Part shown: one piece after another, positions 33,180-60,915 of the stretch
How the letters are laid out: the number at the start of each line of letters is the position of its first letter
Numbering within the stretch: the first letter of the stretch is position 1
Assembly (NCBI RefSeq): GCF_024362785.1
Contig: NZ_CP093301.1
Coordinates: forward strand, 4,650,001 to 4,714,000
Source: Evansella sp. LMS18
GTDB taxonomy: Bacteria > Bacillota > Bacilli > Bacillales > Salisediminibacteriaceae
DNA length: 64,000 bases
Direction: 5' to 3'
Program-made: the position numbers and the translations under genes
Notes under the pieces: generated by a model
What the model was told of the DNA's origin: nothing
Databases searched by the model: none
Seen by the model: the letters and a program-made list of their open reading frames with translations, nothing else

Positions 33180-33312
33180 AAACTCCTGATTATGTATAGG
33201 GCATTTAACCCATCCTCACACCATACCACCGATGACACGCACCTAAGGTTTTTCAACCCACAGCATAGCCGAGTGCCTCCATCGATAACGGCAAGGAGAC
33301 ATTGCCAGATAA
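33180..33312 (-). ncRNA. Candidate EAR (eps-associated / epsC) antitermination RNA
   Basis: The 286-base gap between the EpsB-like and EpsC-like genes is where the EAR element lies in Bacillus eps operons. On the minus strand it holds a hairpin GGCAA/TTGCC (33306-33290), a longer closing stem GCAC/GTGC (33276-33239) and inside it GGTT-GAAA-AACC, a stem with a GNRA loop (33258-33247). Known EAR RNA lets RNA polymerase pass terminators in long eps operons, which fits a locus of 34 kb. The call is from position and foldability; I could not align it to the Rfam model. Confidence 0.65.
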
Positions 33313-43010: not shown

Positions 43011-43060
43011 AGGTGTAAGGAAGATACATACCGTCAGAAAACTACTGGAGTGTGATAGTC

Positions 43061-44233
43061 ATGAAACAGTTCGAGCAATCGGAAATGCTTGCAAGACTGC
43101 CGGAACAATTTTTTGCAAAGCTCGTTAAAAAAGTACAGCATGCCAAAAAGAAAGGTTATGACATCATTAACCTCGGCCAGGGAAACCCAGACCTTCCTAC
43201 GCCGGAACACATAGTTAACTCGCTGCGGTCAGCTGCCGAGAACCCTCTTCACCATAAATATTCTCCTTTCAGAGGAATACCCGAGCTGAAAGAAGCAGTG
43301 TGTAAGTTTTATAAACGGGAGTACGATGTGGATTTAGATGCTGAAAAAGAAGTAGCCGTGTTGTTCGGTGCCAAAGCAGGCCTTGTGGAATTAAGCCAGT
43401 GCCTGTTAAATCCAGGGGATACCGCCCTCCTCCCCGACCCGGGCTACCCGGACTATATGTCAGGTATTGCGATGGCCGATGCGAAACCTGTTTTTATGCC
43501 TCTCGTGGAGGAAAACAATTTTCTGCCTGATTATAATGAAATCTCTCAGGAAGATTTGGAGCAGGCTAAATTAATGTTTTTAAATTACCCAAATAATCCT
43601 ACCGCCGCCACAGCGACGAAGGAGTTTTTTGAAGAGACAGTTGCAATTGGCGAAAAACATAATGTTTGTGTCATCCATGATTTTGCCTACGGTGCCATCG
43701 GCTTTGACAATGAAAAACCAATGAGTTTTCTTCAGGTCCCAGGGGCAAAAGAGACTGGAATCGAAATTTATACCATGTCAAAAACATATAATATGGCTGG
43801 GTGGCGGATAGCATTCGCCGTTGGAAACCCTTCTGTAATCGAAGCACTCAACCTTATTCAGGACCATATGTATGTCAGCCTTTTCGGTGCTGTCCAGGAA
43901 GCTGCTGCTGATGCTCTTCTGGGAAGCCAGGAACCGGTTCAGGAATTTTTGGAGATTTATGAGCGCCGGAGGAATACCTTTGTTGAAGGCATGCAGAAAA
44001 TCGGCTGTGATATTAAATTTCCAAAAGGATCCTTCTTTGCCTGGATGCCGATAGCCAAAGGGTACACATCCGAGGAATTCGCAGACATGCTCATTGAAAA
44101 AGCTCATGTAGCGACTGCACCAGGCAACGGATTTGGTGAACATGGCGAGGGATATGTCCGAATCGGGCTTCTGACTACCGAAGAAAGAATCCAGGAAGCA
44201 GTCGAGAGAATTGGAAAATTGAATTTATATTAA
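43061..44233 (+). CDS. mtnE: Glutamine-dependent aminotransferase of methionine salvage (MtnE/YkrV)
   Basis: A class I/II PLP aminotransferase of 390 residues. It transfers the amino group of glutamine to 4-methylthio-2-oxobutyrate, remaking methionine from methylthioadenosine. Many segments match MtnE of Bacillus subtilis as I recall it, including DIINLGQGNPDLPTPEHIV, the PDPGYPDY loop, LNYPNNPT and the PLP-lysine block YTMSKTYNMAGWRIAF (Lys241). GGAGTG lies nine bases before the ATG; the frame opens three codons earlier with GTG. It is divergent from mtnU. The rest of the salvage pathway is not in the window. Confidence 0.92.
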   Translation: MKQFEQSEMLARLPEQFFAKLVKKVQHAKKKGYDIINLGQGNPDLPTPEHIVNSLRSAAENPLHHKYSPFRGIPELKEAVCKFYKREYDVDLDAEKEVAVLFGAKAGLVELSQCLLNPGDTALLPDPGYPDYMSGIAMADAKPVFMPLVEENNFLPDYNEISQEDLEQAKLMFLNYPNNPTAATATKEFFEETVAIGEKHNVCVIHDFAYGAIGFDNEKPMSFLQVPGAKETGIEIYTMSKTYNMAGWRIAFAVGNPSVIEALNLIQDHMYVSLFGAVQEAAADALLGSQEPVQEFLEIYERRRNTFVEGMQKIGCDIKFPKGSFFAWMPIAKGYTSEEFADMLIEKAHVATAPGNGFGEHGEGYVRIGLLTTEERIQEAVERIGKLNLY

Positions 44234-44242
44234 TATAGAAGG

Positions 44243-44278
44243 AAAAGGAACGCAGGCTTAGGCTTGCGTTCCTTTTTT
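44243..44278 (+). terminator. Rho-independent terminator of mtnE
   Basis: AAAAGGAACGC pairs with GCGTTCCTTTT around an AG-rich apex, ending in a run of T. It starts nine bases after the stop codon. Confidence 0.88.
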
Positions 44279-44400
44279 GGTGAGATTATTTTTATGAGTG
44301 GGCATGCTGGACGCTCCAGCATTACCTTTCTCACTAATTTTTTCCGGAAAGCAGGAAAGGTAAAATAGCCCTTTATCTTATAAACAGACTTATTTCATTT

Positions 44401-44940
44401 TAGGTAAGTTGCAAGAGCGTCTTGCATCCCTTGAGGGAAAGGAAAGTGCTAACTCAAGTAGTGCAAGAACGTCTTACATCCCTTGAGTAAGAGGAAAGGT
44501 TGACCTCAAGTAGTGCAAGAGCGTCTTGCATCCCTTGAGCAAGAGGAAAGCGTTATCTCAAGTAGTGCAAGAGAGCCTTGCATCCCTTGAGTCACAGAAT
44601 TGCTCCAGCTCAAGTAGTGCAAGAGCGTCTTGCATCCCTTGAGGGAAAGGAAAGTGCTAACTCAAGTAGTGCAAGAACGTCTTACATCCCTTGAGTAAGA
44701 GGAAAGGTTGACCTCAAGTAGTGCAAGAGCGTCTTGCATCCCTTGAGCAAGAGGAAAGCGTTATCTCAAGTAGTGCAAGAGAGCCTTGCATCCCTTGAGT
44801 CACAGAATTGCTCCAGCTCAAGTAGTGCAAGAGCGTCTTGCAACCCTTGAGCGAGAGGAAAGGTTGACCTCAAGTAGTGCAAGAGCGTCTTGCATCCCTT
44901 GAGTCACAGAATTGATCCAGCTCAAGTAGTGCAAGAGCAT
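44401..44940. repeat. Tandem array of 52-bp units, each with a nested palindrome
   Basis: Ten unit starts lie exactly 52 bases apart (44453, 44505, ... 44921), with a decayed unit before them. Each unit has a 35-base palindromic core: CTCAAG, then TGCAAGA and TCTTGCA facing each other, then CTTGAG. A 17-base spacer follows, in only a few versions. 44409-44608 is repeated exactly at 44617-44816, so four units were duplicated as a 208-base block. It fills the 771-base gap between the convergent mtnE and reductase genes. 44290-44400 also holds a hairpin (ATGCTGGA with TCCAGCAT). No gene is present. Confidence 0.92.
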
Positions 44941-45004: not shown

Positions 45005-46039
45005 TTATAAATCATCAAACCCATTATCATCTGAAACTTTCGTATACTGCCGGGATTTTTGCTCAAAAAAGTCTGTCTTCCCGCTGTTTACATCCTCGTA
45101 TACTTTTATCCAGCGCATCGGGTTCTGGCGGTATCCTTCAAATGGGCGCTCCACGCCAAGCTGGTTCACACGCTTATTCGCAATAAATTTAATATATGCT
45201 TCAAGATCCTCCATGTTAATCCCGCTGATTTCATCACCGATAATGTGCCTTGCCCAGTTTATTTCAAGCTCGGCCCCACGTATAAAAGTTTCCCGAACAA
45301 ACCGGTGATTCTCCGCAGTATTCAATTCAGGGTTTTCATTTAACAGCTCTTTAAATATATTTGAAAACAAATACACATGCTGCTGCTCATCACGGTTAAT
45401 ATAATTAATCATCGTCGAGGTGGAGACCATCTTCTGGTTCCGCGCCAGATTATAGAAGAAACTGAATCCGGAATAGAAATTCAGGCCTTCGAGTATAACA
45501 TCGTAAACAATGGACTCCAGAAACGTCTGAGGTGTCGGGTCAGCCACAAAACGTTCATAGCCTTCTGCGATAAAATCATTACGTTCCCGCAATACTTGAT
45601 CGTGCTTCCAGTATTCAAAAATCTCGTCCTGCTTTTGCTTCGTTGTCAAACTAGAGAGAACATAAGAATAGCTCTGGTTATGAACCACTTCCTGGAAGGA
45701 AAGTACTGTCATCAGTGCGGACAGGCTCGAATCCGTTAAATACCTGGCCACATGCATGGAATAATCTGTCTGGATGCTGTCAAGAAAGGCGAGGAGTCCG
45801 ATAATTTTATCAAAAGCTTCCCTTTCCTTCGCCTCAAGCGTTTCGTATTGTCTTATATCGTTTGCCATATTAATTTCAAAAGGAGTCCAGAAATTTGCGA
45901 GCATATTTTTATAGAGCGGGTATGCCCAGGAAAATCTCACATCGTCCCAGTTCAGTACGTTAGAGCTTTCCCCGTTAATAATCCCTGTAGATGCATTAGG
46001 CGCCGCTGTATCGTATAATTTTCTTTGTTTTAACGTCAT
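45005..46039 (-). CDS. Ribonucleoside-diphosphate reductase, beta subunit (class I)
   Basis: The radical-generating subunit of an aerobic reductase, 344 residues, which makes deoxynucleotides with the alpha subunit encoded just upstream. The di-metal ligands can be placed as Asp87, Glu117, His120, Glu184, Glu218 and His221, and the radical Tyr124 is in HNQSYSY. This is a B12-independent enzyme. GAGGGGGAATCGAT precedes the ATG. It lies 30 bases after the alpha gene. No nrdI is adjacent, which fits a class Ia-like rather than class Ib set. Confidence 0.93.
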   Translation of the reverse strand: MTLKQRKLYDTAAPNASTGIINGESSNVLNWDDVRFSWAYPLYKNMLANFWTPFEINMANDIRQYETLEAKEREAFDKIIGLLAFLDSIQTDYSMHVARYLTDSSLSALMTVLSFQEVVHNQSYSYVLSSLTTKQKQDEIFEYWKHDQVLRERNDFIAEGYERFVADPTPQTFLESIVYDVILEGLNFYSGFSFFYNLARNQKMVSTSTMINYINRDEQQHVYLFSNIFKELLNENPELNTAENHRFVRETFIRGAELEINWARHIIGDEISGINMEDLEAYIKFIANKRVNQLGVERPFEGYRQNPMRWIKVYEDVNSGKTDFFEQKSRQYTKVSDDNGFDDL

Positions 46040-48325: not shown

Positions 48326-48454
48326 GAGAGAACGGCAAACATGAAAATAGAAAAGAAACCTGAGAATAATAGAATATGTTGAAACATAGATGTATGTATA
48401 GGTTTCCAGCGCCTGCCGCCTCATGAACTCATTCCCCGAAGCCATGAAACTATT

Positions 48455-48632
48455 CGAAAAACAGGCAGGTCTCCTGGCTTATGCTTCTTTCTACTCTGAG
48501 CCTTCCCATACAGCGGCCTTGCAGCCACTCTGTACAGTGGATTTCTCATTTCGTCAGCATTTACAGTTGCGGGGACAGCTCCGGCTTTTCACCGGATTCC
48601 CTTTTAAGCTCTGATTAAGCACCTGTTTTTCT
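48455..48632 (-). promoter_or_regulatory. Cobalamin (B12) riboswitch of the ribonucleotide reductase operon
   Basis: Read on the minus strand, the leader has the classic cobalamin aptamer parts in order: an AAAAGGGAA block, CCGGTGAAAAGCCGG, GCTGTCCCCGCAACTGTAA, and the closing GCCAGGAGACCTGCC (48478-48464). The order and spacing fit an adenosylcobalamin aptamer. With the terminator at 48301-48325 it should stop transcription of the reductase genes when B12 is plentiful. This is known for organisms that also have a B12-dependent class II reductase, which is therefore predicted elsewhere in the genome. Confidence 0.9.
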
Positions 48633-48689
48633 GCAAAATATCAATATATTGTGTTGCCAGTTATTTCTGCAACAGTATTTTGTGTATTG

Positions 48690-60129: not shown

Positions 60130-60660
60130 CTGGACAAATTCTGTGATTTTGTCTCGCATTTGTCCTGCAATTTTGGTTTGCTGGACAAATCTCACTCCTT
60201 GACGGCAAATTTGTCCAGATTAATCGCTTTGCTGGACAAATCTCAGCCATAAAACAAAGATTTGTCCAGATTAGGTGATAAAATTTCCAGTATATCCCAT
60301 TATTAGGATATTGCCTGGACAAATTCTGTCTGTTTTACTTAAATTTGTCCTGCAATTGCATTTTGCTGGACAAATCTCATTCCCAGACGGCTAATTTGTC
60401 CAGATTAATCGCTTTGCTGGACAAATTTCAGCCATAAAACAAAGATTTGTCCAGATTAGGTGATAAAATTTTCAGTATATTCCATTGTTTGGGTATTACC
60501 TGGACAAATTCTGTTTGTTTTACTTAAATTTGTCCTGCAATGACATTTTGCTGGACAAATCTCACTCCCAGACGGCGAATTTGTCCAGATTAATCGCTTT
60601 GCTGGACAAATCTCAGCAACCACCCAAAGATTTGTCCAGATTCAGCACCGAAATTTCTAT
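60130..60660. repeat. Tandem array of 185-bp units with CTGGACAAAT/ATTTGTCCAG hairpins
   Basis: Three units start at 60130, 60315 and 60500, exactly 185 bases apart, and are nearly identical; the last is shortened. Each carries three inverted pairs built from CTGGACAAAT and ATTTGTCC(AG), so about nine stem-loops can form. It lies between the proS T-box terminator and the proS ribosome site, filling most of a 600-base untranslated leader. No gene is supported; a 68-codon leftward frame (60116-60322) is made of the repeats. Confidence 0.9.
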
Positions 60661-60690: not shown

Positions 60691-60915
60691 AAAAGCCCTG
60701 CTCTGAATAAAGGGACCATGGATTGGCGGTACCACCCTTATTTACAAAGCAAGGCTTTATACTCTCTATTTGATAACGGATTGACTCATCCGCTGTGCTA
60801 TAATGCACAGAACTCAGAGGCAGGTTCGAACAGCTGTTACAGAAACCTCTCACCAAATGGTCCCCTCTCTGAAGAAACATCGACTGCTTTACTAATCCTC
60901 ATCAGCGTTTCAGTT
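60691..60915 (-). promoter_or_regulatory. T-box riboswitch, predicted proline-specific
   Basis: On the minus strand the hallmark AAGGGTGGTACCGCC (60740-60725) sits in the antiterminator, which pairs AAGGG with CCCTT. The terminator follows as AAGCCTTGCT with AGCAGGGCTT and a T run (60757-60691). Stem I has AGAGAGGGGACC and GGTGAGAGG. In GAACCTGCC the likely specifier codon is CCT (60824-60822), for proline. Uncharged tRNA-Pro would thus turn on the gene downstream, proS. Confidence 0.9.

Follow-up and report, generated by a model that had tools for sequence, protein, structure and literature searches.

The window, the whole stretch of 64,000 nucleotides analysed here, spans positions 4650001-4714000 of the Evansella sp. 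LMS18 genome, which is a single contig of 4,903,744 bases. It contains a noncoding tandem array of palindromic units, flanked by the 3' ends of two convergent genes with Pfam matches. These encode an aminotransferase (plus strand) and the small chain of ribonucleotide reductase (minus strand), so the convergent setting reported in the first-pass annotation holds (Table 1). Direct reading of 44401-44920 gives ten units with an exact step of 52 bp, the number and spacing first described, and a partial eleventh unit begins at 44921. TRF places the array at 44410-44938, with a period of 52 and 10.2 copies.

Table 1. Coordinates of the array, its flanks and related features in the window
Feature	Position	Strand	Basis
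Upstream flank, aminotransferase class I/II (PF00155)	43052..44233	+	Pfam
Terminator-like hairpin and T-run after the aminotransferase gene, before the array	44242..44277	+	Fold -28 kcal/mol, z -7.75
About 1.5 units of a second, unrelated 52-bp family (TCCAGCGTTACCTTTCTC...GGGCATGCTGGA), same intergenic region as the array	44266..44348	+	Local alignment
52-bp-period palindromic tandem array, ten units and a partial eleventh	44401..44940	+	Direct reading, TRF
Exact four-unit duplication: 44410-44634 identical to 44618-44842, shift 208, 225 bases	44410..44842	+	
Example 35-bp nested palindrome: outer CTCAAG/CTTGAG, asymmetric internal loop, inner TGCAAGA/TCTTACA	44453..44487	+	
Downstream flank, ribonucleotide reductase small chain (PF00268)	45005..46039	-	Pfam
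Another tandem palindromic array, period 185, with 51-bp sub-units CTGGACAAAT..ATTTGTCCAG	60130..60642	.	TRF; sub-unit lengths by eye

Each unit is laid out as the nested palindrome CTCAAG-TAG-TGCAAGA-GCG-TCTTGCA-TCC-CTTGAG, followed by a 17-base spacer. The nesting had been proposed at the outset and is borne out: the array has ten inner palindromes TGCAAGA..TCTTGCA, with AACGTCTTACA in two units and GAGCCTTGCA in two, while the outer arms CTCAAG..CTTGAG are present in nine units, the left outer arm being absent from the first. Spacers A-D are each present twice, and re-reading returns the order first given, A-B-C-D-A-B-C-D-B'-D'. An exact internal duplication of 200 bp had also been claimed; the duplication is real, and its size is corrected in Table 1. 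The plus strand of the array folds beyond chance (z -10.98), and Rfam at gathering scores gives no match there. Elsewhere in the window Rfam matches a cobalamin riboswitch (48447-48641), a T-box leader (60708-60914) and an epsC RNA (33198-33307), all on the minus strand.

A terminator-like hairpin separates the aminotransferase stop from the array; it rests on its predicted fold, the consensus terminator scan having listed none in the region. Transcripts of the plus strand would probably end at this hairpin, so that the minus-strand transcript alone would cross the array. Because of the hairpin, the RNA decay block suggested earlier becomes less likely on the plus strand. The same intergenic region holds the 1.5 or so units of a second 52-bp family, whose local alignment score of 68 compares with at most 29 over 200 shuffles (62/79 identical). 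Arrays of period 184-186 that resemble the other array of the window are found at L148 and, in Evansella clarkii, at L103.

The sequence family in the genome and its relatives

The first reading of the locus, as a lone palindromic satellite, is half right: it is a palindromic satellite, and it is one member of a genome-wide class. A 16-base pattern for its sequence family (F1, core GCAAG-N5-CTTGC), allowing up to two mismatches, has 91 matches on one strand of the genome and 71 on the other, against 3 and 2 for a reversed control. Pairs of core dyads spaced 51-53 bp apart number 247 in the genome, versus 0 for the reversed control pattern. A scan of 16 regions (15 and the window, up to 11 mismatches) finds 163 family units in 14 arrays, L009 and L011 being empty. 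Their steps are 51 or 52 bp, save in two arrays split by insertion, and further family arrays surfaced outside these regions.

One Mutator-type insertion (PF00872 in the copy tested) lies inside two arrays, L021:5027-6205 and L022, as if the palindromes were its target. The two copies carry the same ORF and are identical over 1365 bases, at genome positions 2911526-2912704 and 3109662-3110840.

The core search that had been proposed for the genome and its relatives finds the family in two of nine Evansella genomes, E. clarkii DSM 8720 (G003) included; a covariance model of the core likewise matches in 2/9. The pattern TGCAAGA-N3-TCTTGCATCCCTT is present in 2/100 relatives, and a similar pattern is confined to the window's own genome (G000) among 397 genomes of the order, a sample without E. 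clarkii. Two GCAAG-N5-CTTGC dyads 51-53 bp apart occur in 2/9 Evansella and in 3/396 other genomes of the order sample. Genome G061 has 13 such dyad-pair matches, in an array that repeats an otherwise different 52-bp unit about 23 times, and G099 and G161 have a single pair each, at 53 bp. The G061 locus L188 (627318-628500), from another family of the order, has the GCAAG-N5-CTTGC dyad with GGTAAC/GTGCCC flanks resembling a minor family of Evansella sp. LMS18. An exact scan of one genome per species over 84,980 species, which may omit records near the window's genome, returns 22 stretches, namely 18 in E. clarkii and four single matches in unrelated organisms. The F1 label allows one mismatch, and it flags one array in another Evansella genome (G007) that is probably unrelated.

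E. clarkii, whose genome was sequenced separately, carries two full units plus a partial unit at the locus of the window array. The array is therefore not an artefact of one assembly, a possibility that the first-pass annotation had raised.

A class of constant length: sequence, palindromes and placement

The constant length of the array is shared by arrays of quite different sequence. We ran TRF on 540 kb of the window's genome (27 regions, 20 on a rough grid and seven from synteny; at least 2.5 copies, period at least 15), where 15/34 arrays have a period of 51-53 bp and unrelated consensi, and eight have a period of 20-21 bp. The 20 grid regions (400 kb) account for nine of the 15, which extrapolates to about 110 per genome. 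In two other Evansella, G007 (400 kb) and G002 (360 kb), 7/16 and 6/9 arrays respectively have periods of 51-52 bp, again with unrelated units. The F1 core motif is absent from 13/36 arrays of the window's genome. Other noncoding-looking periods in these genomes are 74, 82, 101 and 184-185 bp. Further arrays, some of period about 82 that resemble four direct repeats of 20-21 bp (TTCGCAAC, CCAGCGAAA, TTCTCGAAA) and others of period 101, are seen at L072, L105, L121, L118 and L136 and at L110, L093, L131 and L141.

Bacillus cellulosilyticus is now classified in Evansella. In that species 47/64 tandem repeats are of 51-53 nt (PMC8161180), and in the same survey Subirana & Messeguer (2021) describe Bacillus tandem repeats of constant size, 51-53 nt or 20-21 nt, whose sequence is variable and species-specific. 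The 51-53 nt kind accounts for 1886/4029 of their repeats, the 52-nt kind occurs in about 30% of the species surveyed, and signal sequences and their reverse are often found within one repeat (PMC8161180). For B. subtilis, Table 4 of that survey has no repeat of 51-53 nt. These authors propose a transcribed RNA or a protein polymerising on DNA, with no obvious function (PMC8161180). The small-RNA source and the chromosome-protein target put forward in the first-pass annotation coincide with these two proposals. The array described here shares with their 52-nt repeats the period of 51-53, at least four copies, the noncoding location and a Bacillus-like host, as well as multiple unrelated families per genome, species-specific sequence and a length that varies between relatives. 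By every feature testable here it belongs to this published constant-size class of Bacillus-like Firmicutes. The 20-21-nt repeats of the same authors form a second constant-size class, with a different unit length of two helical turns, and are absent from the window locus.

Palindromes are common in the class. The consensus contains an inverted repeat better than shuffles (p<=0.05, loops 3-8) in 26/36 arrays of the window's genome, 13/25 of E. clarkii, 2/7 of G007, 5/6 of G002 and 1/1 of G061, and a significant palindrome at this threshold is absent from 28/75 array consensi. Among 27 published consensi, 15 have an inverted repeat at p<=0.05 and 13 at p<=0.01 (loops 3-20).

Covariation within the F1 family does not exceed that of shuffles (88.2% paired against a shuffled mean of 88.2; score 0.060 against 0.065). 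Between families, a comparison of ten array consensi finds 8/13 pairs altered on both sides, a value reached in 0/500 shuffles. The inner stems are of the types GCAAG/CTTGC, GCGAG/CTCGC and GCTGG/CCAGC, and the outer stems of CTCAAG, CTCATG and AGCGG types. The ten consensi were picked by hand from the 43/75 arrays whose inner dyad is perfect over 5 bp, the other 32 having been dropped; because rows were chosen for inner dyads, the compensation in the inner stem is partly a product of choice, that in the outer stem less so. Such compensation fits RNA and DNA palindromes alike. Mismatches of the G-U and A-C types favour no single strand (70 v 42 in the inner stem, 28 v 171 in the outer). The strands of the internal loop look conserved, with GT in 34/41 framed arrays and TnCC in 39/41, a partly circular result in that frame and orientation were set by motif.

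The arrays avoid divergent gene pairs. With 5/75 arrays at an edge and unclassified, the remaining 70 comprise 48 in same-direction gaps, 20 in convergent gaps and two in divergent gaps. In the window's genome 11 are convergent and two divergent, versus 23 and 37 among gaps of at least 100 bp in the 20 grid regions (Fisher p 0.004), a background that comprises every such gap, those with arrays included. The gene calls behind these counts are crude: one gene at L012 was missed, encoding a protein with a nuclease-related domain (NERD), and IS-split and neighbouring arrays were counted apart.

GC skew puts the replication origin near 1.9 Mb and the terminus somewhere from about 4.47 to 4.65 Mb. 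In 34/36 arrays of the window's genome the purine-rich strand of the unit coincides with the leading strand, compared with 164/237 array-free intergenic segments (those with a majority, out of 241; Fisher p 0.001); the two exceptions include the window array. The GT..CC motif, judged by eye with IS-split arrays taken once, shows no bias in its orientation with respect to replication (12 with and eight against the leading strand).

Turnover at sites common to Evansella clarkii

We compared 21 array sites of the window's genome with E. clarkii, and at 15 of them the corresponding position there is also occupied by an array of that family. A different family is found at L017 and L022, L010 is degenerate, and L023, L113 and L122 are not cleanly placed in E. 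clarkii. At L010, which is outside the count of family switches, inspection by eye of the E. clarkii site shows degenerate 51-bp units beside a transposase-like insert.

Array length, a comparison already suggested for this locus, differs between the sister species. The window locus has ten units and its E. clarkii counterpart two and a partial one, with flanks 88.6-93.7% identical. Other orthologous pairs (Evansella sp. LMS18 first) have 9 v 8, 17-18 v 8-10, 6-7 v 28, 2 v 7, 18-19 v 13-14 and 12 v 17 units. Where E. clarkii has arrays of 8.7 and 15 copies, the window's genome has, within homologous flanks, about 1.6 units and a single unit, respectively; both boundaries match for the 8.7-copy array and the right boundary only for the 15-copy array. 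In 7/10 pairs both within-array identities exceed the between-species identity, and in the other three (L014, L015 and the window array) only the within-array identity of Evansella sp. LMS18 does so. Because sites are shared and copy number has changed, the sequences indicate that arrays expand and contract in place rather than by hopping.

Gap events are few relative to substitutions. The arrays have 26/1053 in E. clarkii, 18/413 in G007, 18/397 in G002 and 75/1126 in the window's genome. Orthologous noncoding DNA has 159 gap events for 1359 substitutions (p 7e-17 against the E. clarkii arrays), a difference inflated by the preference of TRF for regular arrays. The value for the window's genome, still below that of noncoding DNA, includes spurious gaps because the TRF consensus length is sometimes wrong (53 nt for the window array).

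At three sites the family differs between the two species and the 52-bp period is the same. At L017 the window's genome has F1 and E. clarkii an unrelated 52-bp unit at 1902128, with both flanks mapped. At L022 F1 again corresponds to another unit in E. clarkii, at 5036845, beside a NERD gene. At L118 (2589441) the unrelated unit is in the window's genome and F1 in E. clarkii, at 369733, with one flank mapped. A search beside the L017 and L118 arrays detected nothing of the other family, all scores being below the shuffle maxima, and at L022 a 26-base match to the other family equals the shuffle maximum.

NERD genes or their remnants adjoin several arrays at the same end. The gene at L012:3446-4363 adjoins array L012, a damaged copy is present at L018 and an N-terminal remnant at L022, and further cases occur at E. 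clarkii L098 and L101. A NERD nuclease gene was considered as a partner of the arrays and rejected; the other loci searched gave only weak matches, and a copied segment carrying both probably accounts for the association. E. clarkii also has a gene at 1906136-1906462, similar to the Y1 transposase gene of L017, about 3.6 kb from a 52-bp array.

Explanations for the constant unit length

We tentatively favour, at a little under an even chance, a DNA-level array phased at five helical turns, in which a DNA-binding or DNA-bending factor would read the dyads rather than a fixed sequence. This reading is favoured because 52 bp corresponds to five turns at 10.4 bp and the 20-21-bp class to two turns. 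It draws support from the period common to arrays of three Evansella genomes, the turnover in place, the three sites with different families of equal period, the low rate of gap events, the compensatory stems, the inverted repeats of the published consensi and the placement relative to genes; length and mirror symmetry, more than the letters themselves, seem to be conserved. It ranks ahead of neutral amplification with a mechanistic ruler, which in turn ranks ahead of a role as RNA.

If the arrays act in this way, unit length would be held at five turns of the DNA helix, which would align the dyad-symmetric elements on one face of the DNA. A candidate DNA-binding or bending factor, or a topoisomerase, could then read the phased, hairpin- or cruciform-prone dyads. 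Topoisomerase acts at enterobacterial BIME sites. Being sited after genes would make the arrays well placed to fold the chromosome or to take up supercoils generated by transcription, and copy number would shift by replication slippage or unequal exchange between units. Rotational phase would be the simplest property that unrelated sequences could have in common. Several observations count against a factor that reads phase: the unrelated families have no common motif that one protein could read, 28/75 consensi have no significant palindrome, the periods of 74, 82, 101 and 184-185 bp are not whole helical turns, and the B. coagulans RNA-seq reads would be equally compatible with a role as RNA.

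Neutral growth comes second and seems rather unlikely. Here the palindromes would drive slippage and unequal exchange, and the constant length would come from the mechanism that makes or copies units (for example a fixed replication-fork loop or footprint), with old seeds persisting. The differing copy numbers of the orthologous arrays compared, the pairs in which both arrays are more alike within than between species and the restriction of the family to two of nine Evansella are all as neutral turnover would have it, and gaps that bear promoters would purge neutral growth too. However, simple slippage gives no reason for unrelated sequences to have one length, and the low rate of gap events, inflated as it is by the choice of regular arrays, also speaks against it.

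A role as RNA is similarly improbable in our estimate. The arrays would act in 3' untranslated regions or as small RNAs, their chains of hairpins protecting mRNA ends, binding proteins or pairing with targets. The strong folding of the plus strand, the scarcity of divergent gene pairs, the apparently conserved (partly circular) loop strands and the compensatory stem changes between families are consistent with this, as are the RNA-seq reads reported for satellites of the class in B. coagulans (PMC8625621). Against it, covariation within the family is no higher than in shuffles, the mismatch types favour neither strand, the terminator-like hairpin precedes the array on the plus strand, and the exact 52-nt unit is left unexplained. 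At the window locus an RNA role would expect the array to be entered only by the minus-strand transcript of the ribonucleotide reductase gene.

It is very improbable that the arrays are REP-like mobile elements moved by IS200-like (RAYT) transposases and arrayed head-to-tail. This was suggested by the tetranucleotide GTAG, which lies directly 5' of the inner hairpin in 9/9 full units of the window. The genome has four Y1_Tnp (PF01797) genes, all nine Evansella have at least one match, and an IS200-like Y1 transposase gene (L017:81-629) lies about 3.5 kb from a 52-bp array. The GTAG REP superfamily resembles the arrays here in being extragenic palindromes mostly in same-direction or convergent gaps, and differs in that its members (PMC3733652) are RAYT-linked, 20-40 bp long, often dimers and tagged in more than 90% of the members of most families; the arrays are strictly tandem with a variable tag. 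GTAG is present in only 8/43 framed array consensi, window included (1/22 in the window's genome, 7/20 in E. clarkii), and no such palindrome is among the inverted repeats listed around the four Y1_Tnp genes (for L026, five of nine listed; this gene lies about 3.5 kb from an array). Moreover, 7/9 Evansella have Y1_Tnp genes yet lack the family, and 15/21 of the arrays compared occupy sites common to both species instead of being dispersed. We therefore consider this origin unsupported. CRISPR, with which the arrays share palindromic repeats and constant-length spacers, is rejected because the spacers repeat both within this array, as the first-pass annotation had seen, and between arrays (one spacer type recurs in others), the whole unit being homogenised with its spacer.

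Returning to phasing at the DNA level, its strongest form is a 52-bp ruler: at fixed intergenic sites sequence would be replaced wholesale while spacing and dyad symmetry are kept, a candidate factor reading phase and hairpin-forming dyads. We think this form unlikely.

A class with constant 52-nt size, variable sequence and unexplained function is already known. The words clarkii, polygoni, palindrom- and hairpin are absent from the main text of PMC8161180, where we also found no discussion of gene orientation, family replacement at one site or compensatory stems, and in the open-licence literature we found no paper that treats site-wise replacement of families or describes palindromes as characteristic of the 52-nt class. 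What this analysis adds is the shared sites with their altered copy numbers, the family switches, the compensatory stems, the inverted repeats of the published consensi, the avoidance of divergent gaps and the low rate of gap events, and the surprise lies in the class and its switch sites, not in the single array.

The findings on palindromes and gene orientation reduce the range of mechanisms that merit testing. With two sister species that share many arrays, three of the sites having different families of equal period, the puzzle of why there is one length and no common sequence becomes measurable. If the ruler is real, Bacillus-like Firmicutes would have a sequence-independent, centromere-like chromosome element, and a factor that reads phase, if it exists, would represent a new principle of bacterial chromosome organisation.
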